In this document: positions 5,828-32,973 of the stretch, one piece after another
Layout: every line of letters starts with the position of its first letter
Numbering within the stretch: the stretch's first letter is position 1
Source: Planctomycetota bacterium
Lineage (GTDB): Bacteria; Planctomycetota; Phycisphaerae; Sedimentisphaerales; Anaerohalosphaeraceae
NCBI GenBank assembly: GCA_021157685.1
Contig: JAGGWF010000035.1
Coordinates: 1-33,155 of the forward strand
Direction of reading: 5' to 3'
Length of the DNA: 33,155 bases
Program-made: the position numbers and the translations under genes
Notes under the pieces: generated by a model
What the model was told of the DNA's origin: nothing
Databases searched by the model: none
The model's input: only the letters and a program-made list of their open reading frames with translations

Positions 5828-6778
5828 CTAACCTTTGAAAAGTCCAGCTAACAATGGCATTCTCATAATCTCCTGGCCACGATAGAACCAATCGGTTGTC
5901 ATATCAGCGCTGCCCTTTGGAGGAACAAGACCTTTAGCGTATTTTGAGTTCACCGGGGGTTTGGCAATCACCAAGTCTAAGGGAACCGCTGAATTTTCAT
6001 TGACCACCGCCAATTGATTATTATCCGGATGGATATTGGTCCAACCGTGTGCACACGGACCAAAATCCGTTGTCGCCACATATAATTTTTCATTCTGATG
6101 AAGAACCACCGGCACCAGACCCTCGAATTCATCTTGGATCGCCTCTGGAATCTTAAACTCACCAGCCATTTCCTGGCCTCTATCGCAGGCAGCGTCAAGA
6201 TAAGGCCTGCTTTTGTTTACGGGATGGGCAAATGCCTTTGTTGAAATAAATATACAAAGCTTGCTCGCGTTGTGGTCGCTCATCATTGTAAAATCTTCAA
6301 ACTTTGCGGGAATCATATCAATATACCCCTTTTCCTGCCAAAGACTCTCGAAGCTTCGAGCGGGGTCTTTGATCATCACATAAGTCCAGTCGGGGACCCA
6401 AGTATCATTTGGGGCCTCGAAGCCGGACAAAATTGACCTTGCATCAGCCGTTCCAGACGGCACATCGTCGCCCCCGGAATAGACCTGGTTGTCAAACACA
6501 AACACATTATTGTGCCCGTGCTGAGGCAGCAACTCCGTCACCAACCCCTTGTTACAAACCGCATCGTTGATGCCGACATATATCGCAAGGGCTGTTTCGG
6601 GTACTTCAGGGATTAAATGAGCTAACTCAAGGCAGTTGATGTCCTCATCAGGAGTGAAATAGTGACAACAATCGGCCATTAAGTTATATGACTGCTTCAG
6701 AAAATCGGAGTACTGAGCTTCTGTACAAGGTGATCGATCAGGTATATCAAAAGCCCTTTTAATGTTCAGCTCATCCAT
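5828..6778 (-). CDS. Hypothetical protein of unknown family, first gene of a kinase/dehydrogenase operon
   Basis: 316 aa uninterrupted ORF, 1 bp from the downstream kinase gene; no family recognised by eye. Confidence 0.75.
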   Translation of the reverse strand: MDELNIKRAFDIPDRSPCTEAQYSDFLKQSYNLMADCCHYFTPDEDINCLELAHLIPEVPETALAIYVGINDAVCNKGLVTELLPQHGHNNVFVFDNQVYSGGDDVPSGTADARSILSGFEAPNDTWVPDWTYVMIKDPARSFESLWQEKGYIDMIPAKFEDFTMMSDHNASKLCIFISTKAFAHPVNKSRPYLDAACDRGQEMAGEFKIPEAIQDEFEGLVPVVLHQNEKLYVATTDFGPCAHGWTNIHPDNNQLAVVNENSAVPLDLVIAKPPVNSKYAKGLVPPKGSADMTTDWFYRGQEIMRMPLLAGLFKG

Positions 6779-7007: not shown

Positions 7008-9455
7008 TTATTTTTGCTTTCTTATAACATTTTGAAGATATTTAAAATTATACTTACAGGCACGCAACTCGCCTTTCAAATTAGTTGGATTGCCGGCTGG
7101 CAGTTGCTCATTTTTTGCTGTTTTACTACCAAGTGCAATCGTTGCTTTATTAAATAAAGAATCAGTTTCAGTAAGCAATCTCTCTATATTCTCATCACAG
7201 ACAAATTGAGCGCTTTTAGTTTCAATTATTCTTTTGATCTTCAATATATTTTCTTTGATTTTCGTAAGCGATTCAATCGCTTCTGGATTATCTGTACCTG
7301 CCCACCAGTTATTGGGGTAATCTCTTTTGAGAAGAATGTTGTCAATTCTGAAAATCACGGAAGAAGCTATTTTCTGAGGAAGTATTGGCAGATATTTTTC
7401 CATAGATGCTTTGTCGAAATAGTCCGGGTTATAGAATGGCGGGACATCACTCATTTCAACAACAACCTTGCCATTCTTTTTGTAATAAACGGGGAATTCA
7501 CTAACCGAAATAATCTGCTTAGGAGCATCAGCCATACCAAGAGCCTTGCACCATCTCCCAAAGAAGTTATGGTTTTCAATAGTGACTTCCCACCAATAGC
7601 CCATATAGCCGGTATCTGTCCATCGCTTTTGGTGAGTTAGGTATGTAATCAGTTTCTGAATATCTTTAGCATCTTCTGACATGCCTCTTTGCCCCAAAGC
7701 ACCCATCACATCTCCATAGCTGTAAAAATTTCTTGGCTGAATCCACTTGCCATTAATATAAAGCCCATCCTTTTCAGATATCTTGAATGCCGACCTTCCT
7801 TTTTCAAAGGATTGTTTATATCTGGAATCCCGGGTTAATTCATAAGCTCTCCATAAAGCCATCATATCTCTTGCACCAAGACGACCCTCCTTCACAAGTT
7901 TACCTGCCCAGGTTTTCATCCATTTTTTATAATAATCGCTTTTCTCAGGATTGTTAAATCTGCCAGGCATGTTATAAATCATAGACAGATAGCAAGCACC
8001 ACTTGCATACTCATGATAGTTGCTGCTCTTTCGGCCTCTTTTCCACATCGCAATGCGATCATCAACCAGTTTTGTGGCAATATTTACAGCGTCCTGGCTG
8101 AAATCACCTCCAAATTCATCCTCTTGCTCATCAAACATGGTAAGAACATATGCGGCAGCAGGAAACGCGCAAACAGGTTCCTCAAGCCAGGCACTTTCTG
8201 TACAGAGACGGCCGGACATGCCAACTTGGCCGGTCGAGCAAATATTACGAGCAATATGATGTAAATGGCTCAAACTCAAGGACGGGTCAACACCTTGAAA
8301 CCGTTCCATCCAAACAGTTTTCTGAATATCTGTTTTATCGTCATATTCAAAATCAACACGATAATATCCGCCAGAGTAGACATCAGCCATAACATCTGTT
8401 TTGCCCTCTGTGCCAGGATAAGCCTGCTGGAAAGACGATTCTGAATCATCACTCCAATGTACCATAATCTTTGAAGGCGTCTCTCTCCATCCAAACATCA
8501 TAGCATTTTGATATTCAAACCCACTCCTATCAGCATCTTTAGTGTAAATTATTATGTAGCTGTAGTCAGGATTTTCGACAGACCAAGGCTTTGATGATAT
8601 TTCGCTGCCATCGGGCAGTTGTATTGTTTCCGGGATTTCTGTGGGGTAAGGCGCCGAAAACCCCATTCCTTTGTCTGTTAAATTTGAGAACACAAGTTGA
8701 GCTTTTTGGCGATTCGCATCAGCAGGCATACTCAAAGTCAACTCAAGCACCTTATCTTGAAGTCCTTCCCAGCCAACGCCCTTTATTTTTATAGACGCTG
8801 TTTCTGGACAAGCATAAAGACGCTCTGTTGTAAAGGACTGCCCATTCTCATCAGCAAGATTACACTTCAAATCCTTAAATTTCATATCAGAGTCATCATG
8901 CCATTCCCCGTTAACCTGAACACGAGGCCAGACTAATGCCAGTTTCTCTGGTGCAGTATCAGGTAAATTGCGAGCTATGAGTTTACTTGCGGAATATCCA
9001 GAAGCAGGACTGAAATTAGGGCCTGACTTATGAGTTGGACTTACAAATGACACTTGCCTTTCAGTTCCTGAATAAACCAACCATAAGGCATCAGCATTTT
9101 GGTAATGCGAATCATACATCGCTTTATAAATCTTTTTGATCAGTTCAATCCTGACAACAGGAGTATAAATTGCCTCTTCACAAAAGGATAATAAATCAAG
9201 CCCGGTATTACCGAAATAATACAAGTCAGGAAAACGCTCTGTTGAAATCTTGCCTCTACCTATAAAATTTTCACTTAGTGCCGGAAGATTCGATGAATCA
9301 TAAAATAGTGCCTGCATGTAATTTCCAACACGCCAATTGGCCTCTTCATAGCTATAAGGTGCTTCATCCTGAGTCATAAGCTCCCATGCAAAAATGCAGG
9401 ATTGAATACTCAATAATACTCCAAAAACGAATGTGATTATTTTTTTACTATTCAC
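7008..9455 (-). CDS. Large secreted protein of unknown family, putative alpha-helical glycan-active enzyme
   Basis: 815 aa with an N-terminal hydrophobic signal (KKIITFVFGVLLSIQSCIFAW). Shares block patterns with the neighbouring 9472..12363 gene. Confidence 0.75.
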   Translation of the reverse strand: MNSKKIITFVFGVLLSIQSCIFAWELMTQDEAPYSYEEANWRVGNYMQALFYDSSNLPALSENFIGRGKISTERFPDLYYFGNTGLDLLSFCEEAIYTPVVRIELIKKIYKAMYDSHYQNADALWLVYSGTERQVSFVSPTHKSGPNFSPASGYSASKLIARNLPDTAPEKLALVWPRVQVNGEWHDDSDMKFKDLKCNLADENGQSFTTERLYACPETASIKIKGVGWEGLQDKVLELTLSMPADANRQKAQLVFSNLTDKGMGFSAPYPTEIPETIQLPDGSEISSKPWSVENPDYSYIIIYTKDADRSGFEYQNAMMFGWRETPSKIMVHWSDDSESSFQQAYPGTEGKTDVMADVYSGGYYRVDFEYDDKTDIQKTVWMERFQGVDPSLSLSHLHHIARNICSTGQVGMSGRLCTESAWLEEPVCAFPAAAYVLTMFDEQEDEFGGDFSQDAVNIATKLVDDRIAMWKRGRKSSNYHEYASGACYLSMIYNMPGRFNNPEKSDYYKKWMKTWAGKLVKEGRLGARDMMALWRAYELTRDSRYKQSFEKGRSAFKISEKDGLYINGKWIQPRNFYSYGDVMGALGQRGMSEDAKDIQKLITYLTHQKRWTDTGYMGYWWEVTIENHNFFGRWCKALGMADAPKQIISVSEFPVYYKKNGKVVVEMSDVPPFYNPDYFDKASMEKYLPILPQKIASSVIFRIDNILLKRDYPNNWWAGTDNPEAIESLTKIKENILKIKRIIETKSAQFVCDENIERLLTETDSLFNKATIALGSKTAKNEQLPAGNPTNLKGELRACKYNFKYLQNVIRKQK

Positions 9456-9471: not shown

Positions 9472-12363
9472 TTATTTGCTCCATTTCCTTAGACTAAATT
9501 CGCCTAGGGTGAAGCCGCTGCCTTTGCCGTACCGGGCATTGGAAAGTCTGACATATATATTTTCAGAATCAAACACACCGTAGACCGTCAGCCGCCTCAA
9601 AAATGCGCCATGGCCGTCGTAGGCAGCCAGATCGTCCGCATTGGTGAATCTCATATAGATACAACCGTTACGGTTAAGATATTGGGTAACATCCACTATT
9701 CTAAGCCACGCGGCATTCGGCAACCGCTGGTCATTTCTGGTTTTTACCAGACTTGCATTCAGCAACTCATCCCAGTTTTTGCCGTCTTTGGAAAACTGTA
9801 CTTTGTAGGAATTACCCACAATAAGTTCCAAATGGCACTCAACTACATCAGCCAGGCCAAGCTTATAAATAAAGTAGCCATCCTTTTCTACATAACGACA
9901 GTACTCGCGCAGAACCGTTGTTTTGCTCTGTTCTGTAATAAAAGCAGTATCATCTTCGGGCGTAATTACCGACATTTTTAATAACTCATCCGGACTTCCG
10001 GTAAGAAATGAAATGTCAAGAGAATGCCTCGTTTGTTTTTCACTCCAGGTATTTAACCTTTCATACCATCTTTTACCATCAGGAGAAACTTCCACCGTAT
10101 AACCATCGCCTGACATAGTCATGTCTATCGCTGCACCCATTGCACCGGCAGTATCGAACTTATAAATAACAGGCTTGTCCTTTTTTCGAAAGACTCGACG
10201 ACCTGTTGATAATTTTCCGCTGGACTGGACAAGGTATTCGCTTTCAGTTTTGTCTCCAGGTTTGAATGTCATTGCGGCAATGTCGTATTCAATCTTTTTG
10301 TCTTCTTTTGAAAGTACTATCAGCTTATCTCCTGCCTTTGGGAAATAAGGATTATCCAGAATTGGCTGTCCTGTGATTTTGACATTGCCTTTAGCATCAT
10401 ATATCGGAAAGGCACCTAACGGTAAAACATATTTTTTCTCTTGTGGGATATCGCAGCCCTTTAAGCTGTAACCCACATATTCAGGATTAGCGTCGTCCTG
10501 CGCCCACGGCCCGGCACCGGCATCGTTCCATAACCTCTTAACGGGCACATCCGGACTATGCCATCCGTTGGGAACATCCAGATTTATCAGTTTATCAACC
10601 TTGTCCATTTTGCCAGCATGCCCCCATGCGCCCAGTGGTAAAGAACCGGAATATGTCTCAAATCCACCCGGTGCTTTAATGGCCTTACCATAACGATATA
10701 TACCCTTTTCATCAATATCATAAACCATCATAGCTCTCTTGTATGCATCAAGATATTCCTTGTTGCCTGTTGCATCATAGGCCATCCATACGGCCCGCAT
10801 AGAATAAAAATGTGCCCATCCACCCATCCACCCTTTACCATCATAGCCAGATTCAGGAGTAAGCATCCTGTGAGTCATTTTATCAATCCATGGTTTGTAC
10901 TTGGCGATAAGTCTCTTGTCATTAAGCAATTGGCCAATTTTTACCATCCAGACAGCGGCTCTGACTTCACTGAAAACCCTTATGAATTTCATATTATTAT
11001 TCTCAGGAAGCAACATCGCATCGACCGCCTCTTCGGCCTGGATTCTTGCGGTAATGGCAAACGGGTCATTGTACATAGATAATAAATAGGCGCCAGCGGC
11101 CATACCTGCAGGAATATTATTGAGCAATTGCTGAGCGGGAAAACCATTGTGCATTAGCTTGCCTGTTTCAAGAAAACATTCAGCATTGCTGAATATGTAT
11201 CCCATATCTTTATAGTTAACCCATGCGAAAGGGTATAGCCACACCTTCCCTTTTGTTTTGTCAGCGATGCTGTCATATGAAACCCTAATCTGGCCATAAC
11301 CGTTTTCCGCCAGGGCCTCAACTTGAGTCGGCTTTCCATCCCACATAATTAATAAAGCTCTTGAATACCCGGGGCAAGCCCAGGCGGTCTGCTTGGATAC
11401 TATTAAATATTGAAAATCAGGCGAACTAAATACTCTATTGCCATCTTCTTTGGAACTATAGGTCGTTGTCCTGTCCGGCAAATGTATAATACCGGTAGCC
11501 TCTTTATCTCCAAGTAGCGCCATCGGTTCGCCAGATGCGCCTACGACAATATCCAACATTTCAGCGTCATCCGAGGAAAAACCAAACTCCAAAGGCATAT
11601 CCTCATCACTGAACCAATACTTGCCTGTAAATTCGACATGCTTTCCCTCAAGATTATAATCACGATTAAAAACAAACGGCGACTCATTCCAATATTCCGA
11701 CAAAGCTTTTTTGGCCAATCCGCCACCGCTTGCTGGTTCGCGGGCTACTCTTGCGCTACCGGCATCGGCAGGTTCATCGGTATAACCGAACTTACCGGTC
11801 TCATACCACACATCATCAATCTTTGCTCTGAAACCTATTTTTGTATAACCTGTTACAGCATCGCCCCATGTGGAAAGAAGCAGTCTACCCTGGCTTGAGA
11901 CACCTCTGTCGTCGAAGATCAAAAAAGTTTTCCCCCCATTTCTATGTCGAAACGAGTAATACGCTTTTGTCCCGGGATAGCGTGCTGCCATAAGACCTTT
12001 GGCCAATTTCCGCACCAATTCCAGCCTGACCACCGGTGAATAGCGATCCTCAAAAACCAATGCCTCAATAAATCTGGCATTATCATCCGGGAACTGCAAA
12101 TGCCACGCATCCCACGAATTAATATCGTAATCGAGGTGCGTATAGCTTGACATATTGATGCGCTTATCCAGCAGGTTCTCATTATAATTTATGCCAAGGT
12201 AATTAAGCTCGACAAGGCTATACGGTGCGAACGAATGCCTCAACTTGTCCAGCGGCCCTAAGGGCTCAACGCCGCCAAACCATCCATCCGCAGATGAACA
12301 CAATGCCAAAGTAAATAAAACTGTGAGCAATGGCCCTGCCGTCTTTCTCGTTTTGTATGTCAT
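9472..12363 (-). CDS. Large secreted protein of unknown family with C-terminal beta-sandwich-like repeats
   Basis: The track ORF is 9472..12390; the internal Met (MTYKTRKTAGPLLTVLFTLALCSSADG) gives a clean signal peptide and follows AGGAG. Paralogous blocks with 7008..9455. Confidence 0.75.
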   Translation of the reverse strand: MTYKTRKTAGPLLTVLFTLALCSSADGWFGGVEPLGPLDKLRHSFAPYSLVELNYLGINYNENLLDKRINMSSYTHLDYDINSWDAWHLQFPDDNARFIEALVFEDRYSPVVRLELVRKLAKGLMAARYPGTKAYYSFRHRNGGKTFLIFDDRGVSSQGRLLLSTWGDAVTGYTKIGFRAKIDDVWYETGKFGYTDEPADAGSARVAREPASGGGLAKKALSEYWNESPFVFNRDYNLEGKHVEFTGKYWFSDEDMPLEFGFSSDDAEMLDIVVGASGEPMALLGDKEATGIIHLPDRTTTYSSKEDGNRVFSSPDFQYLIVSKQTAWACPGYSRALLIMWDGKPTQVEALAENGYGQIRVSYDSIADKTKGKVWLYPFAWVNYKDMGYIFSNAECFLETGKLMHNGFPAQQLLNNIPAGMAAGAYLLSMYNDPFAITARIQAEEAVDAMLLPENNNMKFIRVFSEVRAAVWMVKIGQLLNDKRLIAKYKPWIDKMTHRMLTPESGYDGKGWMGGWAHFYSMRAVWMAYDATGNKEYLDAYKRAMMVYDIDEKGIYRYGKAIKAPGGFETYSGSLPLGAWGHAGKMDKVDKLINLDVPNGWHSPDVPVKRLWNDAGAGPWAQDDANPEYVGYSLKGCDIPQEKKYVLPLGAFPIYDAKGNVKITGQPILDNPYFPKAGDKLIVLSKEDKKIEYDIAAMTFKPGDKTESEYLVQSSGKLSTGRRVFRKKDKPVIYKFDTAGAMGAAIDMTMSGDGYTVEVSPDGKRWYERLNTWSEKQTRHSLDISFLTGSPDELLKMSVITPEDDTAFITEQSKTTVLREYCRYVEKDGYFIYKLGLADVVECHLELIVGNSYKVQFSKDGKNWDELLNASLVKTRNDQRLPNAAWLRIVDVTQYLNRNGCIYMRFTNADDLAAYDGHGAFLRRLTVYGVFDSENIYVRLSNARYGKGSGFTLGEFSLRKWSK

Positions 12364-12648
12364 ATTCAGTGCTCCTAAAATTATTGACATTTTTCATTTA
12401 CAGAGTTAGCTGGGATTTCCCATATAATATTTTATATCCTAGCTTAACTACGCCGCTGGATCTCTTTCCTAATTATTTCACTATTTTACCTATTGTCTAA
12501 AGTAGATTCAACTCATAAGTGCGACTGAGTCGCCAAAATTATGGCGATCTGGTATATACTCTCTCACTGAATTTTAGTTACCTCAATAACTATCCATTTT
12601 GTCAAACAAAAGTTATCCAAGTGTCCGCCATCTGTTTAGCACCTCAGT

Positions 12649-13670: not shown

Positions 13671-14684
13671 CTATCGATCCAATGCTGCCTCTGACATAGC
13701 CACGACATTTTCAGGTGACACATTCGGCAGCAGGGCTTCATGGCTCGGACTAATAATAACATTCGGTCCCAGAAGATCTTTAACCCGGGTCGTTTCCGCT
13801 TTCACATCTTTAGGGTTGCCATTGACGAGTAAATCCTGGGTATCAATTCCACCCATAAAAGCAACCTTTCCCTTAAAATCTCTTGCCAATGTTTCAGCAT
13901 CCATATTCGCAGCCAATGCCTGAAGAGGATGCAAACAATCAACACCGGAATCTATCAGTGTATCTATAACACTGTGTATAGAACCGCAGGAATGCAAAAT
14001 CACCTGACACCCATATCCCTTCGCCTGCTCAATAAACTTTTGCGTCCACGGTAAAATAAATTCGTTAAATTGAACAGAACCGCATATCAATCCGCTTTGA
14101 GTGCCAAAATCGTTACCAAAGAAAAAGCCGTCCATTTTATCCCCCGCAACCTTAAAAAAACGCTCATTGGCCTCATAATAAAATTGGCAGATTCTATCTG
14201 TCGCCGCATGTATCAATTCTGGATTTAAATGCATATTCATCAAATAGTTTTCCATGCCGAACAATTCCATCAAGTCATGATAAAAACAGCACCAAAAACC
14301 ACTTGCACGATAACAATCACCCGCATTGTCAAGATTTTGTATACCTTCATCGAAATTCAAATAGTCCGGATTGGGCCAATCATATTTTTCTATTTCACTG
14401 ACCTTTTCAACCTCTGCCAGCGGGCCCGCTCCGCTAAGCGTTCCCTTTTTACCATAATCGAATATCGGCTTTCCATCAGGATGTTGATATACAGATCCCT
14501 CAAACTGAGTACAAATCCACCTGAAATCATCCCCCAGTTTATGACGAATTTCTTCCTGCGAGTCCGTACCGAAATAATCATAATAAATGGGCCAGGTTTT
14601 CGGGTCGGGATTGCCCAGCCAAAAACCGCAACGGCCTGTATTCGTGCCGGAAATTATAGAATGAATCTTTTCCCTGCTCGTCAT
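13671..14684 (-). CDS. Uroporphyrinogen decarboxylase (URO-D)/MtaA-like family protein
   Basis: 337 aa; MTSREKIHSIISG, GNDFGTQSGLICG, ILHSCGSI (HxCG motif), FMGGIDTQ, SPSHEALLPNVSPENV. Confidence 0.8.
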   Translation of the reverse strand: MTSREKIHSIISGTNTGRCGFWLGNPDPKTWPIYYDYFGTDSQEEIRHKLGDDFRWICTQFEGSVYQHPDGKPIFDYGKKGTLSGAGPLAEVEKVSEIEKYDWPNPDYLNFDEGIQNLDNAGDCYRASGFWCCFYHDLMELFGMENYLMNMHLNPELIHAATDRICQFYYEANERFFKVAGDKMDGFFFGNDFGTQSGLICGSVQFNEFILPWTQKFIEQAKGYGCQVILHSCGSIHSVIDTLIDSGVDCLHPLQALAANMDAETLARDFKGKVAFMGGIDTQDLLVNGNPKDVKAETTRVKDLLGPNVIISPSHEALLPNVSPENVVAMSEAALDR

Positions 14685-14756: not shown

Positions 14757-15812
14757 CTATTTCCTATCATACCTGTAGGGTTCACCCCAAAATAGATGAA
14801 TCACTCTGTCTTGACTTTTTTGCCAAAATAGATAACTCTTCCAAAAGGGAATACGAGATTCTATAGAATGGCTCATCTCATTGGCATGGCCCGGTAAAAT
14901 AATTTTAGGACGCAAACCCGCTGCGACTCTGTCAGGAAAGGCGGTCCAAGAGTTCACCATAAGTACATCGACATTAACATCTTTGTGCACCGTATCAAGC
15001 CACTTAAAATCATCATTCCAGCTCTGGTCTCCGGAATGAGCAACTGTAATATTATTGGGCAAGGTAATCACTGTGAAATTATTATCAACCGCCGCATCAT
15101 CTGAGATGGCCTGGTGCCCCGGATAGATACGCACTAATATTTCCGCATCTGTCTCAGGAACCACAAACTTACTTTCTTTACCATCCGCCAGCCAATGTGT
15201 TACCCTGCCATAGAAATCTTCTTTCACAAATACCCCTGGTGGGGTAATTACCGGCTTGTTTTGTGACAAGAACTCTCCGGCAACAAATGAATCTGCATGA
15301 TCACCATGTATATGGCTAACAAAGAGAATGTCACATAATTCGACCATTTTTTTAGCCAGATTCTTATGCAAATCCTCATCTCCCTCTTTTCTCAGGGATG
15401 GAGGCAATCGGATCAAATCAAATGCGACCGTTATTTCAGATGTCTTAACAACATAGGACAGGTTATAAATATTCCATACTACCGCGCCCGTTTTGACTTT
15501 GGTTTCCTTGATACTCTCAAGTGCTTTCTCGTATCTACCGAGAAACATCTCTTTCAGACAATTATCGTGTGGAGAGGGATAATGAGTCAGGGCATCGACC
15601 AGATATAAAGCATTTTTCCTTTCAATAGAATGATAACCCGGTTTTTCATTATCGAAGTATGACCCCAATTCTTTGGAAAAAATCACATTCTGTGTTTTAT
15701 AATACTCCAAATCATTCGAGCTAAGAGACGCTCCTGTTCCAAAAGCTTCTGATAGAAACAGCACGGATCCCACAATACCCAAAAAGCAAATCTTCGACTG
15801 TCGAGTAGGCAT
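14757..15812 (-). CDS. Secreted metallo-beta-lactamase-fold hydrolase (UlaG-like)
   Basis: 351 aa with signal peptide; LFVSHIHGDHAD metal-binding motif, VAHSGDQSW, ILPGHANEM. RBS AGGAGG upstream. Confidence 0.8.
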   Translation of the reverse strand: MPTRQSKICFLGIVGSVLFLSEAFGTGASLSSNDLEYYKTQNVIFSKELGSYFDNEKPGYHSIERKNALYLVDALTHYPSPHDNCLKEMFLGRYEKALESIKETKVKTGAVVWNIYNLSYVVKTSEITVAFDLIRLPPSLRKEGDEDLHKNLAKKMVELCDILFVSHIHGDHADSFVAGEFLSQNKPVITPPGVFVKEDFYGRVTHWLADGKESKFVVPETDAEILVRIYPGHQAISDDAAVDNNFTVITLPNNITVAHSGDQSWNDDFKWLDTVHKDVNVDVLMVNSWTAFPDRVAAGLRPKIILPGHANEMSHSIESRIPFWKSYLFWQKSQDRVIHLFWGEPYRYDRK

Positions 15813-17612: not shown

Positions 17613-18887
17613 TTACTTGTTCGAGTTGTATTCAAATGCATTCTCGTACTTATCAATACAACCAATCGCCTGAATGACCGCTTTGGGATTCAAGACAGTA
17701 ATTGGACCGTCAGCAACGTAGTTTCGCATTCTACAGCCCAACATAGTTATCGTAAGCTTGTCATTGCCTCGTGCCAGTAGAAAATCCTGTGACTTGCCCA
17801 GCGTTGTCAAAGCCCCATTCGGCCCAGAAAAGGCCTCGACATTTGTCAGTGAAGTATGCCCTTTGCCCTCAACAATCAGCGGATGTATATCTTGCGGCTT
17901 TTCTGCCGTATTGGCAATTATTGAGCCTTGGGCAATCTGCCAGTTGCGGTTGAAATTGTTGTCGCCGAGTTTGTGTATTCCTATGGTAACACAGTCGAGA
18001 TTGAAATTCGTCAACTGGCCGTAAGTGGCCGGGCCAAGATAAATCCCGCCATACACTCCGAAGGTAAACAAATCAATAAGCTGGGCATTATCTGCATGGT
18101 CAATCCGGTAGGTAAATGCTTTTCTTGCGACCACCGAGTCAATCACCGCTTTGCTGTATGAACCTTCGATAAACCGCCGGGTGGCTGGATTTACATGGCA
18201 GTGAAGTATCCGCGGAATGTCATAGCAATAGTCAATGCGGATAAATTCGCCACTGAGTGGATAACCGTAACAGTGCTCGAAAAGAACTTGTTCGACAATC
18301 GCTCTGGGAGTAGCATTAAAGTCCATCGCCAGAAATTCGCCATAAAAAGTGAGAGATGACAGTGTTACTCCCTGAGCACCTTTAGTCTGGGATGCCTGGA
18401 TGGTTGCTGGATATTCGATTATCTTTGTCGGATCCTTGATTGTTTGTTCCGGATACCAGAACTGAATCCCACGAATTTGTGTCGCATTTTCGACGGTAAT
18501 AAAAATGTTCTTTTCATCTTCAATAGCAAAAACGCTGCCGACAGGCTGGGCTTTATCGGGGTGGCTGGTTCCTCTTCCAACCGGTCCGTGTACACCTATC
18601 AGTGATACATTTGCCCTTAAAATAATCCCTCCATCGATATAGTAAGGCTCCGCCGATGGCTCAACATAAAGTGCGGCCCCTCGCGGATGCGCCCAGTCAA
18701 TAGCTTTTTGAAAATTATCCCTGTTAATCGCAGCAGCGTTTGTCGGCAGTACTCCAAAATCACGAATGCTCTTGAGGCACCTACCGGCAGATTGCAAAAC
18801 TGCACCCTTGGCTTTGTCAGGTTCAGCAGCCATAAGCCCGCCACATAATACGAACACCACCAAAAATAAACTTGTTAATTTTCTCAT
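17613..18887 (-). CDS. Secreted pectate-lyase-like / right-handed parallel beta-helix protein
   Basis: 424 aa; signal peptide LTSLFLVVFVLCGGLMAAEP, DFGVLPTNAAAINRDNFQKAIDWA.., YYIDGGIILRANVSLIG.. Confidence 0.7.
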   Translation of the reverse strand: MRKLTSLFLVVFVLCGGLMAAEPDKAKGAVLQSAGRCLKSIRDFGVLPTNAAAINRDNFQKAIDWAHPRGAALYVEPSAEPYYIDGGIILRANVSLIGVHGPVGRGTSHPDKAQPVGSVFAIEDEKNIFITVENATQIRGIQFWYPEQTIKDPTKIIEYPATIQASQTKGAQGVTLSSLTFYGEFLAMDFNATPRAIVEQVLFEHCYGYPLSGEFIRIDYCYDIPRILHCHVNPATRRFIEGSYSKAVIDSVVARKAFTYRIDHADNAQLIDLFTFGVYGGIYLGPATYGQLTNFNLDCVTIGIHKLGDNNFNRNWQIAQGSIIANTAEKPQDIHPLIVEGKGHTSLTNVEAFSGPNGALTTLGKSQDFLLARGNDKLTITMLGCRMRNYVADGPITVLNPKAVIQAIGCIDKYENAFEYNSNK

Positions 18888-18981: not shown

Positions 18982-20079
18982 TCAGTAAGTACATTTTCTG
19001 GCTTCATCGGCAAACGCCATAATCAACTCAGGTTCCGCATCGAAAAAATGATCGGATGGACTTAAAATAAATGCACCATTTTGACCCGCCACCTCAAAAC
19101 ATCTTCTAACTTCCGCTCTGGTTTGTTCCGGAGTGCAGTCTGTAAAAAAGTGAAGCTGATCAAACCCACCAATCATGCAAATATCAGCAGGTACGCGCTT
19201 TCTGGCTTCGGCCAAATCGACATCACCGCCCATTCCCGATGGCGTAAATGTTTCCATGGCATCCGGTTTCATTACCGTAATGTTTTCCAATATCGGCATC
19301 ATGCCGCCACAGGTATGATAAACTATCCTCTGGTCAGCATCATGAACGATTTTAATAAGTTCAGCATCATAAGGGGCGACATATTCATCGAAAATCTTTG
19401 GCGAAATGACTGTCGAAGACGCATCTCCGCCACCTAATTCCAGGATATCGTACTTGGCTCCCTTGAGGGACTTACTGTAATCTTTTTTTCGTTTCTGGAG
19501 TATTTTCAGAAAGGAGTGTACCCACTGGGGATCATCGAAGGTCGCCATGATTAGTTTTTCGATCCCGAATAAACAAGCTGCATCCTGCCATGTCCCCGGC
19601 TGGCCAAATAAATCGAAGCAGCAGATATGACCGCGAATCAACGCCTTTTCGCCATAGTCGGCTGCAATACTGTTTACCGCTTCTGTATCGCAGACAGGAG
19701 ATGTTGCATACTTGCCTATAAGGTCGATATCCCTCTTATCCTTAACAAGATGTTCCATAACCCAACAAGTATAATCGTTATGTTGAATGACGGTGCTAAG
19801 ATTACCCTCGGGCGTAAAAATCGTATGTCGTTTGGCCTGATAATCCTGACCGGGAATATCTTCTGTTTCAATTCGCCACTTGTCAGACATTTCATCTTTA
19901 TAGGGTGTGGCCCAAACAATAGGGTCGAGCCCAAAATGGCCGAAAAATCCATCGTTGGATATGCCATTCATATATTTATCAAGAAAATACGGTTGGACAT
20001 GGTGCATAGTGACCGGCAGTCGATCCGGGACACCGCCATCAATTGCTGTCAACATGCGTTGTTTGGGACTAAGATTCAT
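18982..20079 (-). CDS. Uroporphyrinogen decarboxylase (URO-D)/MtaA-like family protein
   Basis: 365 aa; LSPKQRMLTAIDGGVPDRLPV, YHTCGGM (HxCG), MIGGFDQLHFF. ATG overlaps the symporter stop (ATGA). Confidence 0.8.
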   Translation of the reverse strand: MNLSPKQRMLTAIDGGVPDRLPVTMHHVQPYFLDKYMNGISNDGFFGHFGLDPIVWATPYKDEMSDKWRIETEDIPGQDYQAKRHTIFTPEGNLSTVIQHNDYTCWVMEHLVKDKRDIDLIGKYATSPVCDTEAVNSIAADYGEKALIRGHICCFDLFGQPGTWQDAACLFGIEKLIMATFDDPQWVHSFLKILQKRKKDYSKSLKGAKYDILELGGGDASSTVISPKIFDEYVAPYDAELIKIVHDADQRIVYHTCGGMMPILENITVMKPDAMETFTPSGMGGDVDLAEARKRVPADICMIGGFDQLHFFTDCTPEQTRAEVRRCFEVAGQNGAFILSPSDHFFDAEPELIMAFADEARKCTY

Positions 20080-22067
20080 TGGGAATCCTTTAAGTTCAAA
20101 CTGTCAAGACCGTTCAGTTTTCGATACCAGAAAATATACATACCGGCCAAACTCACGATAAAAATTATAAGTGTTACAAAAAAAGCCGTGTAACTCTTGA
20201 TTATCAATTGCATAGGAAGCAGTAATAAAGATATCTGCCAGCCAAGCGTGAACGGTAAAGCTATAATATCATTGAAGTGCTCTTTCTTTGTAGCTTCCCT
20301 GAGTTGTGGAGAAAGCGTCTTGTTCAGCTTGCCCCAAATTCCAAACGGACGAGTTGTTTTATAGAAATGCTCCAATATTTCCTTATCGGTCGGTTTGGTT
20401 AAATATGTGCCAACCACACTCGCTATCAGCCCTATCGCAAACATCATACAAAACAGCTTCCAATCGTTAAGCTCACCTAAAGGAAAAACGAATGTCAACA
20501 CAGTCCATATCTGCTTGTTTAGAATTGCTGCCATAAGTCCAACGGTCGTTCCTATGGCAAATCCACCGCCGTTGAATCTCCACCAGTATAATCTAAGTAC
20601 GGAGGGGGCAAGGAGACCGCCACCAAAGCCCATAATAACCCAACCCCAGATAGCGTTGACAGAAGGTATCCGATAGCCGAGTACAAAGCCTAGCACTACT
20701 AATGCTACACCAAAAGCCCAGCTTGCATAAATAAGTTCTTTTGTTGTAGCGTCAGGACGAAGCCTGCTATAAATATCTTTTGTAAAGAAACCCGTCGTCG
20801 CGTTAACAGTTGAGTCAAAAGTTGACATAGACGCCGCTATCAAAGCTATCAGGATTAACCCTCTAAAGCCTACATGAATATTGTGCAAAATAACCGCTGG
20901 TAGAATTCGCTCTGGATTAACTATGCCGTTATAACCAAGCAGAGGGAGACTGGCTTGCCATTTCTCCCCCAAAAGATTCTGTAATCCTTTGGATATTTCG
21001 GGATACTGCTCTGGTGAATTTGTAATTTTTGACAATAACTCAGGCCACATGCTCTCTTCAACAGCACCAACATTAACTTTTATCAATTCCGCTGAATCAA
21101 CAAGCACTTGCTGGTCAGGGAAAAGTGTTTGTACTAAAAATATACCTAACACAGCAAAAGAAATCATCAACGGCCAGCGAAACATCATCAGTGAACCCCA
21201 TAAGAAAGAAAGTAATCCGCACTCGCGGTCACTCTTTGCAGCAAAGTATTTTGGTTCAGCTCCCCCCCCCATACCACCAATCACATTTCTAAGTAAATAG
21301 AAAAATGAAAACATAGCAAGATGATTAAAACACTTATATCCTTCCGGAAATTCGGTGTACCAGGGCAGTTTTGACGATGTCCAGTTTTCACTGCCGGTGA
21401 CCGCGGTTGCAATTGCTCCAAAATCTTCAACGCCAGCCAATTTTGCAATCGCCATCGCAGATATGGCTATAACTGCGATAAGTATAATGCCTGATTGAAA
21501 TATATCGGTAAAGACAACTCCATAAAAACCCGAAGCAACAGTATATATTGTCGCTATCGTTACCATTACCAGAGCACACTGGAAAGGAGTGAACGGCAGG
21601 AACATTGAAAGAAATAATCCAACGCCTTTGACCATATAAGCTAACATTCCAACTGTTCCGACAATTGCGGAAATAACTGAAACAAATCTTGCAAACTGAC
21701 CGCCGAAACCACCACCAAATCTGTACGCCATCCACTCAGCACCGGTAATACATCCGCTTCGCCGGTGCCATTTGCCCGTCCAAAGCAAACAAACAGCTAA
21801 CACAAGTCCTGCCCCACCTCGAAATTCAATGTAAAGCCCCCTTGGCCCGAGCATATAGAGGAAAGAGACTATAAGCAGTGTCCCAGTAATATCCAGCCAC
21901 GAAGCCATACCGGAAATGCCCAACGCCCACCAAGGCAAGCTTCTGCCGCCAATGAAATAATCTTCTATGCTGGCCGAAGCCTTCTTCTTCAGGTACCAAC
22001 CTAAGCCAATCAGAAAAACAAAATATATAACGATAATACTATAATCCAGCGCATTGAGATACTTCAT
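20076..22067 (-). CDS. Sodium:solute symporter (SSS family)
   Basis: 663 aa multi-TM; DYFIGGRSLPWWALGISGMASWLDITGT.., about 75% similar by eye over the N-terminal half to 28986..30968. Confidence 0.88.
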   Translation of the reverse strand: MKYLNALDYSIIVIYFVFLIGLGWYLKKKASASIEDYFIGGRSLPWWALGISGMASWLDITGTLLIVSFLYMLGPRGLYIEFRGGAGLVLAVCLLWTGKWHRRSGCITGAEWMAYRFGGGFGGQFARFVSVISAIVGTVGMLAYMVKGVGLFLSMFLPFTPFQCALVMVTIATIYTVASGFYGVVFTDIFQSGIILIAVIAISAMAIAKLAGVEDFGAIATAVTGSENWTSSKLPWYTEFPEGYKCFNHLAMFSFFYLLRNVIGGMGGGAEPKYFAAKSDRECGLLSFLWGSLMMFRWPLMISFAVLGIFLVQTLFPDQQVLVDSAELIKVNVGAVEESMWPELLSKITNSPEQYPEISKGLQNLLGEKWQASLPLLGYNGIVNPERILPAVILHNIHVGFRGLILIALIAASMSTFDSTVNATTGFFTKDIYSRLRPDATTKELIYASWAFGVALVVLGFVLGYRIPSVNAIWGWVIMGFGGGLLAPSVLRLYWWRFNGGGFAIGTTVGLMAAILNKQIWTVLTFVFPLGELNDWKLFCMMFAIGLIASVVGTYLTKPTDKEILEHFYKTTRPFGIWGKLNKTLSPQLREATKKEHFNDIIALPFTLGWQISLLLLPMQLIIKSYTAFFVTLIIFIVSLAGMYIFWYRKLNGLDSLNLKDSQ

Positions 22068-22383: not shown

Positions 22384-25230
22384 TTACACATCAAATTGAA
22401 GTTCAATCGTCAAAATCTTTTTAGGAAGCAAGCTGATATTTTTGAGTGCATTTTTGACAAACGGCAAATCCTCTTGCCTTTCTTCGTTCAGATTACATAT
22501 CCAGGCTGCGACAATTGAACTTTCGCCAAATAACACATCTGTATCCTGGGCACTGTCTGTTGGGTTGTAGAGGCGAACAATAAAGTTATCTGAATCAACC
22601 GCCTTCTTTATTGCCGAGAAACGCACCTGGGTATTTGAGATTTCGAAGAACGATGACTTCTCTCCGGACAATTTGTTACTAGGGGTTTTATTGCCAGTCA
22701 CCTGCACCGCTAAACAAGGAGCGTTAAACTTATCCGCCTCCAGGGGAATATTAGCCGCACTCCAAGTGCCTGTATGGGGAATGATAGAAAAACGATACTT
22801 ATGTAATCCCAGAGATTGCCCCCCCTTTTGCGATGGAAAATGCGAACCCGCCCTGCCGCCGGTACAAATCCAATTCTCAACACATCTGAGCAATGACAAT
22901 GCCACGGTACGCTTATCATCTTCAAACGCTTCATATTCGGTAAACGAATCATTAACAAAAGCCAGGCCAACTTGAGAATCATTTATGTCAATAAATGCGT
23001 TTTGAGGCTGCGTCGCCATGTCAGGCCAAACACTATGGTCCGTTGGGCCTTGCGGATGAATGCTTCTGCAATCAACATTAAAATGACCTCCAGAATAAAC
23101 ATTCTCAGCGGCGGTAATTCCTGTCGGGAATATCGCTTTAAGATAGTGGTCCTGATGTCCATTTTGAACCTCTACAGCAACATCAAGTTTCCTTTGGCAC
23201 CTCTTAAGGGTCAGAGAGGTCCGAATAACCATCGGTGCTGTTTTGTTTGATCTCTCATCGGTGTGTCGATCACCTTCGATCGGCAACGGGAAGTCAATCT
23301 CACTAACCAATGTCGCCTGTAGAGGCCCTGCGTTTTCACTCCAAATAACCGCCTGAGAACCCAGCGTATTGATACACCTATCACACATTGGCCTTTGGTT
23401 AATCCAGTAGTTTCCATGCTCACCTCGGTCCTCATAGAAATTCAGGTCATCATATGTCCTGCCGGTTTCCTTATCCAATATCGAATAGGTGCCGTTCGGA
23501 TTCATCCGAACTTTAAGGAATTCATTTTCCAAACAATTGTGCCCGCTAAGAACACTCGAAGTGAGCGATTGAGAATCCGACCATTGGTCAGCCGTTTCTC
23601 GGTAATCTTCAATATCCTTCACTTGGAAAATCTTATAGCCCCCGGCGGGGATCACCCCTGTATCAAAGAAGAGTCTGTGCCTTTCTGTCTGATAGGGGAA
23701 AACCCGTGTATGGATCTCGGCAACACAGTAATTAACATCTTCTCTGCCCACCCACTGAGTCCCCATCGGTTTGCACTGGCCATCCAAAATAATCAGGCCT
23801 TTGGGGAACCCCTCAAAATAGATCCTTTTGGGGTCCCCCGGAATCGTAACCCATGCCTCTATGACTTCACTGCGTTCATAGGGCAAGGGATTGAATACGA
23901 CAATAAAAGTCTGATCTTCCGGATATAGTGAAAGGTCGATATTTTTGATTATATTTTTGACCGATGCATGTGAGACAACATCGGCGAGTTCTATCACCTG
24001 CGCCAACCTGTACTCAACATCTTTTACACTCTTGTCCTGCATCACCCCATTAATAGAATCATGGGGATGTGACTTGAGCATATAATCCCATGCGATGTCA
24101 AGGAATGCGTACTGGGGGTCTTCTTTAAGCATAATCGAATAGGCCGCCAGCGGCTCAGAACGACGAATGAGTCTGTTTTGTGCCTTCTTATTAATCTGCT
24201 TAAGATACAATCTGGTGGTGAGCGCATTCCCTGTCAGCTCCGTCACCGGGCCATCACGCAGTTCACCTTTGACAACCTGCAGATCCTTCTTATTAATTTT
24301 TTCTTTGAACACCTTAAGGTAATCATGAATCGTTTCATGCCGCCAGAGCCGTCCCTCTAAATCGGTTTCATTCAACTTGGCAATCATGGCCTGCATTGAC
24401 TCTTGCGCAGCAGTGTAATCACAACCATTCATCATCAGTCTGTCAGATTCCAGGACACTCTCATCCATCGTCGACCAGACATCCTCAATCATGTCCTGAG
24501 ACAAAAATTCAACCACTGGCCGCGGTTGTTTCTCAAGAAAAAAGTGGTCCTGCTCAATCTCTTCAGGAGCTGTAAAATGATATAATGTCCCGATCGAAGA
24601 AGTGTATTCCCAATCGTCCGATTCATATTCAATTCCGTATAACATCGGCAAATGAATTTTAAAGTAAAAATTCTGCCTGCCCCAACCACCAAATCGGGTT
24701 GTCACGACCTCAGATCCATCAGGGGATTGCCAGACAAATTCGGACTTCGGGGCCCTTTCCTTATTGACCCTCTTTCCAACCATCACGGTGTCTATACCAA
24801 AACCTTTGTAAATTTGAGGCAACTGGCCTGTTTGCCCCCACCCAAAAGGTGTATAACCAACATCAAAAACCTTCCCCAGTTTCTCTGATTCACGGACACC
24901 TTTCAGGAGATTCCTAACCAGACACTCGCCATCAATCGGATATTCGTCAGGCAAGGTATACCAAGGACCAATTTGCAATTTCCCTTCCTTGATCAAACCA
25001 CAAACTGTCTTTTTCATGTGTGGCTTAATTTCAAGATAGTCAAGGATCGGTACCACCTGACCATCTAATAAAAAGCCCGGATAGGTTCCATCGCTCAGCA
25101 ACTTCACCAACTCATCCATAAACTCAATGAGATACCATCTGGTTTGCCAAATTGGATAACGCCATTCTCGATCCCAATGCGTGTGAGAAACGATGTGGCC
25201 AATTTTTTTGGAAGACTCTTTTGAATGCAT
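22384..25230 (-). CDS. GH38-like alpha-mannosidase family protein with a noncanonical nucleophile region
   Basis: 948 aa; VSHTHWDREWRYP, GQLPQIYKGFGIDTVMVGKRV, SHPHDSINGVMQDKS. Confidence 0.85.
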   Translation of the reverse strand: MHSKESSKKIGHIVSHTHWDREWRYPIWQTRWYLIEFMDELVKLLSDGTYPGFLLDGQVVPILDYLEIKPHMKKTVCGLIKEGKLQIGPWYTLPDEYPIDGECLVRNLLKGVRESEKLGKVFDVGYTPFGWGQTGQLPQIYKGFGIDTVMVGKRVNKERAPKSEFVWQSPDGSEVVTTRFGGWGRQNFYFKIHLPMLYGIEYESDDWEYTSSIGTLYHFTAPEEIEQDHFFLEKQPRPVVEFLSQDMIEDVWSTMDESVLESDRLMMNGCDYTAAQESMQAMIAKLNETDLEGRLWRHETIHDYLKVFKEKINKKDLQVVKGELRDGPVTELTGNALTTRLYLKQINKKAQNRLIRRSEPLAAYSIMLKEDPQYAFLDIAWDYMLKSHPHDSINGVMQDKSVKDVEYRLAQVIELADVVSHASVKNIIKNIDLSLYPEDQTFIVVFNPLPYERSEVIEAWVTIPGDPKRIYFEGFPKGLIILDGQCKPMGTQWVGREDVNYCVAEIHTRVFPYQTERHRLFFDTGVIPAGGYKIFQVKDIEDYRETADQWSDSQSLTSSVLSGHNCLENEFLKVRMNPNGTYSILDKETGRTYDDLNFYEDRGEHGNYWINQRPMCDRCINTLGSQAVIWSENAGPLQATLVSEIDFPLPIEGDRHTDERSNKTAPMVIRTSLTLKRCQRKLDVAVEVQNGHQDHYLKAIFPTGITAAENVYSGGHFNVDCRSIHPQGPTDHSVWPDMATQPQNAFIDINDSQVGLAFVNDSFTEYEAFEDDKRTVALSLLRCVENWICTGGRAGSHFPSQKGGQSLGLHKYRFSIIPHTGTWSAANIPLEADKFNAPCLAVQVTGNKTPSNKLSGEKSSFFEISNTQVRFSAIKKAVDSDNFIVRLYNPTDSAQDTDVLFGESSIVAAWICNLNEERQEDLPFVKNALKNISLLPKKILTIELQFDV

Positions 25231-25715: not shown

Positions 25716-26867
25716 ATGGAGTACTCAGTGCGAGCAATTACAACGCCAAGAAAGACCAAACACAAGGCAATATATGATGATATATTTCATAAAATCAGTT
25801 CCGGTGTCTATAAACCCGGTGACAAAATCCCAACAGAAATCGAACTGGTAGATTCTTTCAATACCTCCAGGCCCACTGTTTCCAGGGCCTTGCGTGATCT
25901 GGAAAGCATTGGACTTATCTATCGAATACAGGGTTCCGGTTCTTTTATTTCTAAGAAACCAGCGTTAGAAAACCTCACATTGGGCCTACTTACAGCAAGA
26001 GATGCGATTAATCCGGTCTGTCCCCAAGGGCCCACGATTTTCAGCCAGATAATCCCCCAAATATCAAGATTTGCAAGTCAAAGCAATATGGCCCTTATCT
26101 TAGGAAATTCCCCCCCCTTGAACCAAAAGACACTGAGCACAGAAACAACAAAGATATGTGATGATTTTATAAAAAGGGGTGTCAAAGGTATATTTTTCCT
26201 CCCTTTTGAAACAACTGAAGAACCCCTTTCGCTCAACGAAATGATCACGGAAAAACTTGCCGCGGCTAATATACAAATCATACTTCTGGACAGAGACATC
26301 TATGATGTAACTTCCAAAAGAAGTAGATTTGACATAGTAGGACTAGACAATACCAGAGCTTCTTACACACTCACCCAACACCTTATTGAACATGGGTGCA
26401 AGAATATATGTATCTTGTCAGATGAATCCCACAACAGTGTCATCAATGACAGAATACAAGGTTACCAGAAAGCAATGTCTGACAATAACCTGCCCAGCAC
26501 TCCTACAAAACTGGTTAGATTCAGCGAGGGAAAGATTGACGAGGCAAGGTCTAAACTTTTACCTCTGAATTTTGATGGCATTGTTTGTGTCAATGATGCC
26601 ATTGCCGCAAAAGTGATGAATCTCTACACAGGGACAGGCGCTGAAATCCCACAGAAAATCAAAATCGTAGGCTTTGATGACCTTCCACTGGCAGCACATC
26701 TCAATCCGCCTTTAACGACGATTCACCAGCCCGTTAATGCCCTGGCGGAAGAAGCTGTTAGAGCAATGTTGAATCGCATTGAAAACCCGACAGACCCTGC
26801 CAAGGACATTAGAATACACGGGGAGATGGTTATCAGGCAGTCCTGTGGGTGCGGGGCATTACAGTAG
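25716..26867 (+). CDS. GntR-family transcriptional regulator with LacI/PBP1-type ligand-binding domain
   Basis: 383 aa; GntR HTH (ISSGVYKPGDKIPTEIELVDSFNTSRPTVSRALRDLESIGLIYRIQGSGSFI) followed by a LacI-like domain (VGLDNTRASYTLTQHLIEHGCKNI.., KIVGFDDLPLAAHLNPPLTTIHQP). Confidence 0.9.
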   Translation: MEYSVRAITTPRKTKHKAIYDDIFHKISSGVYKPGDKIPTEIELVDSFNTSRPTVSRALRDLESIGLIYRIQGSGSFISKKPALENLTLGLLTARDAINPVCPQGPTIFSQIIPQISRFASQSNMALILGNSPPLNQKTLSTETTKICDDFIKRGVKGIFFLPFETTEEPLSLNEMITEKLAAANIQIILLDRDIYDVTSKRSRFDIVGLDNTRASYTLTQHLIEHGCKNICILSDESHNSVINDRIQGYQKAMSDNNLPSTPTKLVRFSEGKIDEARSKLLPLNFDGIVCVNDAIAAKVMNLYTGTGAEIPQKIKIVGFDDLPLAAHLNPPLTTIHQPVNALAEEAVRAMLNRIENPTDPAKDIRIHGEMVIRQSCGCGALQ

Positions 26868-31056: not shown

Positions 31057-32973
31057 ATGAAAAATATCATACTGATACTCGCCCTGTTTATAAATGCTTG
31101 TGCTTTTTCGGAAAAAAATGACATCTACATTTATGATTTGACTTATACACTTGGTATTGATCTCAAAGATGCCAAACAGGTCAATAATACATGGGACCAT
31201 TGCCATGTCGTTTCTAGTTTACAAGGTATCGTAAACAGAGATCAGCCAAGATTGTATTTACGATATATAAATTCTCAAGATACGAATGTGAATATTGATG
31301 ACTTCTGGCTCGACAAGTATAAAAACCAGTGGTTATGTGGAAGAAACATAACCAAAATCAGTTCTCTGAAAAAGCTTGTCGAAAAATTTCGTGATTCTAT
31401 AAACGGTGTTGTTGTTTATGATCCAAATGTTCCGGCGACCAGTAATGTGGCTTCTACTGTGGCTGGCGTTAAAAATCTAATCGCCGTCAGATTTGATAAA
31501 TCCCCGAAAAGTGCTTTTAATATCCTTACTCTGGAATTGGATCTGCCTGTTAAAGTGTGGTTAGTCAACCCTGATGGGGGTTCAAAGTTTACGGGGGGCG
31601 GCCTGATCCCGGACACGAATCGGTATTCCACCGGTTCAGCCAAATGTGATGCTTACCTGTGGATGAAGGCAAATTATATCGACAAGGGATTGTGCGATTG
31701 CACGAATGCCGGTTATTACATCGACTACTATTGGACCAAGCATCCTGCGGCAGTAATAGAAAATCATCATACGCTGACAAATCACGATTATTTTATCAGC
31801 CAAAAAGGCTTCTTTTTTGACCTAAGTCCATGGGCAGATGAACCCGCAACAGATGATCCGACACAACGGCCAGGCACTGATCGAAATGTTCTGGAAGAAT
31901 TATTACTAAGCGCCTATCGACAAACCGAAGGCAAAAAAATGATCCATATCGGCGGATTCCCGCCTTGGGCATTTAAGTACACTGCACATGCGGGCAGCAG
32001 ACACGGCGATGTGGACTCGGAATGGGAATACACAGCTATCATAAGTACCTACAATGGATTTCAGGATGCTGACGCCATTGGCTACGGCGCCATGGCAAAC
32101 GCATCTTTCTGGCAGCATTTCCCGCTGAAAGACCAATACCCCCAGCAATGGGTCACGCATGAGGAACTCAGAAAACGCGGATACCTGACTGAGGATGGCA
32201 AGGTCGATTTTCAGGGTCGCGATTTCCTGATATTTTATGTTGGGGACTATGATTGTGCGGCATGGGTGTATCAGAAAACGCCAGCTATCTGGGACGATCC
32301 CAATAGGGGCAAGATTCCTTTGATGTGGTGCGTCAGCCCAATTATTGAAAAGCGCGCTCCAATGGCAATGGATTATATGCGAAGAACGGCGACACCCAAT
32401 GACTATTTCGCAGCTTCCGATAACGGCGCAGGTTATTTAAATCCGAGCATGCTGCAATACTCCCAACACCATTCAAATCTAAGATCTCTTTCAAATTTGC
32501 CGGGCGGCCTTACCATCTGGCAGGAACATTGCGATAAATACTATAAAAAATGGGGACTTACAATTACAGGTTTTGTGATTGATGGCTTTGCAGGAGGGAT
32601 GGGGAAGAAAGAACTGGATTGTTATGAAAAATTCAGTCCAAATGGCGTCGTTTGGCAAAAAGGAGCTATTTCCTATTTGCACAATAACCTGCCCGTTCTG
32701 AGAAGTGATTGGGACATTAATGATAAGGACCCCATTGAAGCCGCTAAAAAAGTCGTAAAGCGTGTCAATAAGCATCCGATACCCTTTCATTGGTTCCGCA
32801 ATATTTTGCAAACTCCTTCCTGGTATGTAGAGGTTAATGAGAATATAAAGAAAATCAATCCCCAAATAAAACTGCTGGATGCGCCAACTTTTTTTGAATT
32901 GTACAGGATATATCTAAAAAATAATCCTGATGCGGCGAATGGCAAGTATGGCTATTTTGAATCATTGTGGTAA
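31057..32973 (+). CDS. GxGYxYP-type putative glycoside hydrolase, secreted
   Basis: 638 aa; short signal peptide, VVSSLQGIVNRDQPRLYLRY N-terminal block, SDNGAGYLNPSML motif region. Confidence 0.75.
   Translation: MKNIILILALFINACAFSEKNDIYIYDLTYTLGIDLKDAKQVNNTWDHCHVVSSLQGIVNRDQPRLYLRYINSQDTNVNIDDFWLDKYKNQWLCGRNITKISSLKKLVEKFRDSINGVVVYDPNVPATSNVASTVAGVKNLIAVRFDKSPKSAFNILTLELDLPVKVWLVNPDGGSKFTGGGLIPDTNRYSTGSAKCDAYLWMKANYIDKGLCDCTNAGYYIDYYWTKHPAAVIENHHTLTNHDYFISQKGFFFDLSPWADEPATDDPTQRPGTDRNVLEELLLSAYRQTEGKKMIHIGGFPPWAFKYTAHAGSRHGDVDSEWEYTAIISTYNGFQDADAIGYGAMANASFWQHFPLKDQYPQQWVTHEELRKRGYLTEDGKVDFQGRDFLIFYVGDYDCAAWVYQKTPAIWDDPNRGKIPLMWCVSPIIEKRAPMAMDYMRRTATPNDYFAASDNGAGYLNPSMLQYSQHHSNLRSLSNLPGGLTIWQEHCDKYYKKWGLTITGFVIDGFAGGMGKKELDCYEKFSPNGVVWQKGAISYLHNNLPVLRSDWDINDKDPIEAAKKVVKRVNKHPIPFHWFRNILQTPSWYVEVNENIKKINPQIKLLDAPTFFELYRIYLKNNPDAANGKYGYFESLW

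Follow-up and report, generated by a model that had tools for sequence, protein, structure and literature searches.

GH38-like proteins without the catalytic aspartate form a widespread bacterial group of candidate zinc-dependent glycoside phosphorylases

The window, the whole stretch of 33,155 nucleotides of Planctomycetota DNA analysed here (JAGGWF010000035.1), encodes a GH38-like protein whose catalytic nucleophile has been replaced, and which belongs to a large group, sister to the bacterial GH38 α-mannosidases, whose members lack the nucleophile. From its residues, we consider the chances about even that this protein is an inverting, zinc-dependent glycoside phosphorylase. The gene and the residues on which the argument turns are as follows.

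22384–25230, minus strand: GH38-like protein without the catalytic nucleophile, 948 aa (open reading frame and translation, Pfam, AlphaFold2 model, Foldseek and N-terminus check)
25171–25185, minus strand: HTHWD (residues 16–20), in which H18 and D20 are equivalent to the zinc ligands His90 and Asp92 of Golgi mannosidase II (PMC13204073, PMC7609781)
25159–25161, minus strand: R24, a gained basic residue right behind the active-site Trp23; Asp-bearing relatives have Tyr here
24790–24864, minus strand: nucleophile block DVGYTPFGWGQTGQLPQIYKGFGID (residues 123–147), in which, by alignment, F129 (codon 24844–24846) replaces the Asp that serves as nucleophile and zinc ligand
24694–24696, minus strand: R179, a gained Arg on the barrel strand leading to R185
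24670–24678, minus strand: R185-Q-N187, with R185 at the active-site Tyr position (Tyr269 of dGMII, Tyr460 of SpAms1)
24418–24420, minus strand: D271 in MMNGCD, the general acid equivalent (Asp341 of dGMII)
24058–24063, minus strand: H390-D391 of SHPHD, equivalents of the zinc ligand His471 and the substrate-binding Asp472

Pfam searches placed GH38N, GH38C and GH38C2 domains above cut-off in the 948-aa protein, with Alpha-mann_mid, the middle domain, just under it (28.7 versus 31.1). Sequence comparison identified bacterial GH38 enzymes (3lvt, 5kbp and 2wyh) as the closest relatives of solved structure. An AlphaFold2 model built from 52 nucleophile-less sequences (mean pLDDT 90.4, pTM 0.93) returned 5kbp and 2wyi as the top Foldseek matches (TM 0.83 by query, 0.89 and 0.88 by target). 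The domains and the TM score to 5kbp make the protein a GH38 family member, and the model indicates a complete GH38 fold. Its score against the MngB equivalog model NF007331 (mannosylglycerate hydrolase) was 394 bits, below the cut-off of 1138, and a profile search found no nucleophile-less member among solved structures. The N-terminus check revealed no signal peptide in the window protein; the nucleophile-less GH38 proteins lack one and are predicted to be cytosolic.

An earlier note on this DNA had claimed that Phe replaces the expected catalytic Asp within the interval 24822–24869, which corresponds to residues 121–137. Residues 121–147 read VFDVGYTPFGWGQTGQLPQIYKGFGID, and ungapped alignments bear the claim out: F129 falls on the nucleophile Asp of 3lvt, 5kbp (GYFPDTFGNMGQTPQ) and 2wyh and on that of E. 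coli MngB (GYLPDSFGMSGQLPH), an Asp that sits in GYFPDTFG in the solved enzymes and in GYLPDSFG in MngB. In GH38 mannosidases, this residue doubles as a zinc ligand. The active-site set of dGMII is given in a review as His90, Asp92, Trp95, Asp204, Phe206, Tyr269, Asp341 and His471 (PMC13204073), and that of SpAms1 comprises His290, Asp292, Trp295, Asp402, Tyr460, Asp493, His615 and Asp616 (PMC7609781). The window equivalents are H18, D20, W23, F129, W131, R185, D271 and H390, with D391 in addition. Five of the eight positions are kept, and three are altered (Phe for the nucleophile Asp, Trp for Phe and Arg for Tyr). HTHWD and SHPHD are both intact, as had been stated, and three of the four zinc ligands (H18, D20 and H390) are predicted to be retained. 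Compared with a retaining mannosidase, the protein has the general acid/base Asp and lacks both the Asp that acts as nucleophile and zinc ligand and the active-site Tyr. In the secondary structure of the model, R185 begins helix 184–198, right after strand 174–179, which would put it, with F129 and D271, at the C-terminal side of the barrel; the locations of R24, R179 and R185 derive from alignment and secondary structure, not from coordinates.

The same pattern was found in 80 GH38-like homologues without the nucleophile Asp, which carry Phe (62), Thr (17) or Ser (1) at that position. H18, D20, D271, H390 and D391 are invariant in 80/80, in agreement with the earlier view that the site is not the product of random decay. 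Nucleophile loss by itself often marks pseudoenzymes, and such proteins might be binding proteins or degenerate enzymes without catalysis. However, because the acid and the three zinc ligands are invariant, the nucleophile-less proteins look catalytic rather than relics; the new residues are equally conserved, as is a partner gene described below, and we regard a non-catalytic role as very improbable.

The loss is accompanied by changes that the earlier note had missed, namely the active-site Tyr to R185, together with R179 and R24. At the active-site Tyr position, 79 of the 80 nucleophile-less proteins carry Arg and one carries Lys, while all 31 bacterial-type Asp-bearing proteins carry Tyr. 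This position was determined by counting residues from the preceding PDG motif: Arg occurs at +13 to +15 in 79/80 nucleophile-less proteins, and Tyr, never Arg, at +12 to +15 in 31/31 Asp proteins. When a bacterial Asp-bearing member was aligned with Ams1, the conserved Tyr fell beside Ams1 Tyr460, with a gap shifting it by three columns. Automatic alignments had presented R185 as part of an insert absent from all Asp-bearing sequences, an interpretation we rejected as partly a matter of gap placement, given that the PDG count puts R185 on the conserved Tyr. The change thus reads, in the sequences, as a Tyr-to-Arg substitution followed by an extra segment. Arg at position 24 is found in 83% of the nucleophile-less set versus 0% of the Asp set, and Arg at position 179 in 90% versus 0%; N187, Q133 and Y141 are also typical of the nucleophile-less set. 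Among the individual loci, one protein looks intermediate (L113:1351-4161), with LISSFGH at the nucleophile block and Lys instead of R185, and one nucleophile-less gene is split in two frames of 235 and 696 aa (L137, G028:C515) by a frameshift or an assembly error.

Many sequences, many phyla and a perfect co-change of D129 and Tyr strongly support the proposal of a GH38-like clade with an altered active site and, probably, a different mechanism. The relocated nucleophile that had been offered as one option did not find support. Another residue of the protein would then serve as nucleophile in a retaining hydrolase, and the family chemistry would be kept, but the clade gains no acidic residue at a plausible place: the residues that it has acquired and conserved are Arg, Asn, Gln and aromatics, and the sole Asp gained, D404, takes the place of a Glu in the helix that follows the H390-D391 motif. 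We therefore hold a relocated nucleophile to be highly unlikely.

A single scan of GTDB species genomes confirmed at least 579 relatives, and the best 80 loci were retained. Among these best 80 of at least 579, nucleophile-less loci were found in Planctomycetota, Verrucomicrobiota, Kiritimatiellota, Lentisphaerota, Hydrogenedentota, Ignavibacteriota, Bacteroidota, Bacillota, Spirochaetota and others. A homologue tree computed without the active-site columns requires three transitions between presence and absence of the Asp, only one of which is forced by the starred branches, and the nucleophile-less group may have a single origin. The window's own genome encodes another nucleophile-less paralogue (C245, TATSNGQ) as well as one with the canonical Asp (C197, CDMFGH).

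Clustering of neighbouring genes revealed that many nucleophile-less GH38 genes adjoin a gene for a HAD protein (motifs DLDGT or DMDGT, VTS, KPH and EDS). Leaving out two motif-only matches (L087 and L135), this HAD lies at most 4 genes away in 39/82 nucleophile-less loci (34 adjacent and on the same strand) versus 0/30 Asp-bearing loci (Fisher p 1.8e-7 and 2.2e-6, a guide only, as the loci are related). Using profiles across 59 relatives, we found the HAD in 16/20 genomes with a nucleophile-less GH38 versus 0/39 without; across 392 genomes of the phylum, the figures were 8/11 versus 2/381, the two exceptions being of a distant 450-aa type. Most genomes carry one HAD whatever the number of their nucleophile-less GH38 genes, as does G037, in which it stands alone. 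A reverse search from main-type HADs showed that 7/8 testable loci adjoin a nucleophile-less GH38. In HAD-linked members, positions 24, 179 and 185 are all basic in 37/37 (36 Arg and 1 Lys at position 24; Arg in 37/37 at position 179), and the window protein has all three.

The top NCBIfam matches of the HAD are β-phosphoglucomutase (β-PGM) family models, below their cut-offs, and its top PDB sequence match is the β-PGM 4gib (E 2.8e-5). Fold matches of its model (pLDDT 79.6) include mannitol-1-phosphate phosphatase, β-PGM and CbbY. On these matches, the partner is assigned to the β-phosphoglucomutase/sugar-phosphatase class. We found no HAD homologue in the window's own genome, nor in the same-genus genomes G002 (99% complete) and G005; with the HAD absent from the genus, the phosphorylase reading of the window protein draws on its residues. 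Between its nucleophile-less GH38 and HAD genes, Faecalicatena orotica encodes a further GH38N-like protein of 795 aa (L055:10479-12863), which is very divergent.

The genes that surround the GH38-like gene in the window include the following.

20076–22067, minus strand: sodium:solute symporter, next downstream gene (Pfam SSF, 1.8e-27)
18982–20079, minus strand: URO-D family protein, part of the same operon-like run (Pfam)
25716–26867, plus strand: GntR-type regulator with a sugar-binding domain, divergent (Pfam)

The symporter is the probable importer of the substrate of the GH38-like protein, and SSF proteins are among the commonest neighbours of nucleophile-less members that lack a HAD. Apart from the symporter, the operon encodes two URO-D proteins, three PfkB kinases, an ADH, a DUF4432 protein and secreted proteins without assignment; it does not name the substrate. 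The two URO-D family proteins lie at 18982-20079 and 13671-14684 in this sugar-use operon; elsewhere, in Bacillota, Desulfobacterium and others, URO-D genes are again found next to genes for nucleophile-less GH38 proteins. No confident Pfam match was obtained for four further products of the run (7008-9455, 9472-12390, 14757-15812 and 5828-6778), and a weak Pfam search of the unassigned operon proteins gave hints only: C5-epimerase and F5/8 for the 972-aa protein. The 316-aa protein recurs in another locus (L142), where its neighbours are a PfkB kinase and a nucleophile-less GH38. A probably secreted protein (17613-18887) has a weak pectate-lyase/rhamnogalacturonase-type match. The divergent plus-strand run includes a putative GxGYxYP glycoside hydrolase (31057-32973), whose neighbours are a GH2-like protein and another SSF symporter. 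Elsewhere, an operon conserved in Ignavibacteria/Bacteroidota (L067:1-17143) combines a hydantoinase-like protein, an FAD oxidoreductase, a phosphohexomutase, a HAD, a nucleophile-less GH38 and a GH94 phosphorylase.

Inverting phosphorylases need a single acid, and phosphate itself is the nucleophile (PMC8950772); at the level of sequence, the window protein offers such a single acid with no protein nucleophile or base at C1. In Golgi mannosidase II, zinc binds O2 and O3 of the −1 sugar (PMC13204073). We propose that the neighbouring symporter would import a glycoside from outside, that zinc would hold O2/O3 of the sugar in the −1 site and that D271 would protonate the leaving group as acid. 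Loss of the nucleophile Asp, with arginines around its site, would provide room and charge for phosphate opposite the acid, and R185, R179 and R24 would hold inorganic phosphate for its attack on C1 from the face occupied by Asp204 in mannosidases. The product would be a β-sugar 1-phosphate (β-mannose 1-phosphate if the sugar is mannose, which is the family default only and not established), and in most relatives the dedicated HAD of the β-phosphoglucomutase/phosphatase class would turn it over. HAD β-phosphoglucomutases are known to use β-sugar 1-phosphates beside GH65 phosphorylases. The gained arginines and the sugar-phosphate partner make phosphate as an external nucleophile a better fit than a relocated one. 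The wider proposal is that, in a GH38-derived superclade over many bacterial phyla, nucleophile loss and the Tyr-to-Arg change turned retaining zinc mannosidases into inverting zinc-dependent α-glycoside phosphorylases yielding β-sugar 1-phosphates, with one dedicated HAD mutase per genome serving several of them; we put this forward tentatively, as somewhat short of an even chance. The window's own genome also encodes a GH65-like phosphorylase, a GH65 call made by eye, fused to a β-PGM domain above the curated cut-off (L209, G000:C41:2938-3492 and flanks). This fusion might serve in trans, but its presence does not bear specifically on the GH38-like protein.

Several points count against phosphorolysis. 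A switch from retaining to inverting within one family is unusual, and the three PfkB kinases in the window operon suggest that free sugars are also made. Moreover, the HAD could be a phosphatase, and the arginines could bind an acidic group of the substrate instead of free phosphate. The latter is the basis of the strongest rival, a hydrolase for glycosides with a phosphate, sulfate or uronate group, in which the arginines would hold that group, water would attack directly or after neighbouring-group help and the HAD would dephosphorylate a phosphosugar product. The Arg gains suit a substrate anion as well as they suit free phosphate, phosphatases are among the HAD fold matches, sulfatases occur near HAD-less members and the relative MngB acts on an anionic mannoside. 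Yet MngB keeps its Asp despite that substrate, so that nucleophile loss is left unexplained. In addition, we found no PTS to make phosphoglycosides in the annotated neighbourhoods of nucleophile-less GH38 genes, where the transporters are ABC or SSF importers. Overall, we judge an acidic-substrate hydrolase unlikely, though a serious contender.

Zinc chelation of O2/O3, as in GMII (PMC13204073), would also suit a metal-dependent lyase acting on 3-keto glycosides. Here zinc would bind O2 and the 3-keto group, a base would take H2 and D271 would protonate the leaving group, making a nucleophile unneeded. Gfo/Idh and xylose-isomerase-like genes do neighbour some members, for example the own-genome paralogue C245, but they are a minority (3 and 3 of 99), and a lyase would account for neither the HAD partnership nor the arginine gains. 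Our search of open-licence papers found none on point for 3-keto-glycoside lyases, and we consider lyase chemistry improbable.

Automatic annotation would label nucleophile-less proteins α-mannosidase or mannosylglycerate hydrolase. Should they prove to be phosphorylases, the annotation of an entire branch of glycan use would be wrong, and phosphorolysis would extend to α-mannosides. They would then illustrate, in a zinc enzyme fold, how a handful of changes in the active site can convert a two-step retaining hydrolase into a one-step phosphorylase. Phosphorylases have a practical use as well, in the synthesis of defined oligosaccharides. A list of phosphorylase families does not include GH38 (PMC8950772), and we found no study of a GH38 phosphorylase or a nucleophile-less GH38 protein in open-licence papers.

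Among known systems, the bacterial GH38 α-mannosidases (MngB; SpGH38, 2wyh; the E. faecalis enzyme, 3lvt/5kbp) share with the window protein the fold, domain order, zinc ligands H18/D20/H390, acid D271, Trp23, Asp391 and cytosolic location. The nucleophile-less group differs from them in the replacement of the nucleophile Asp by Phe, Thr or Ser, of the active-site Tyr by Arg and of EWY by EWR, and in its extra segment behind the R-x-N motif and its HAD partner. The D204A mutant of Golgi mannosidase II (3bud, 3czn) likewise has a GH38 fold from which the nucleophile has been removed, with substrate still bound, but is a laboratory mutant without compensating arginines. GH130 is a mannoside-acting family that includes both phosphorylases and hydrolases, as GH38 would; in contrast, its fold is an unrelated five-bladed propeller and it converts β-mannosides to α-mannose 1-phosphate. 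GH65 α-glucoside phosphorylases have an unrelated (α/α)6 fold and no zinc, whereas the phosphorylase activity of the GH38-like group is putative. With their HAD β-phosphoglucomutase, they would nevertheless share its proposed logic: a single acid, phosphate as nucleophile, conversion of an α-glycoside to a β-sugar 1-phosphate with inversion, and a HAD partner.
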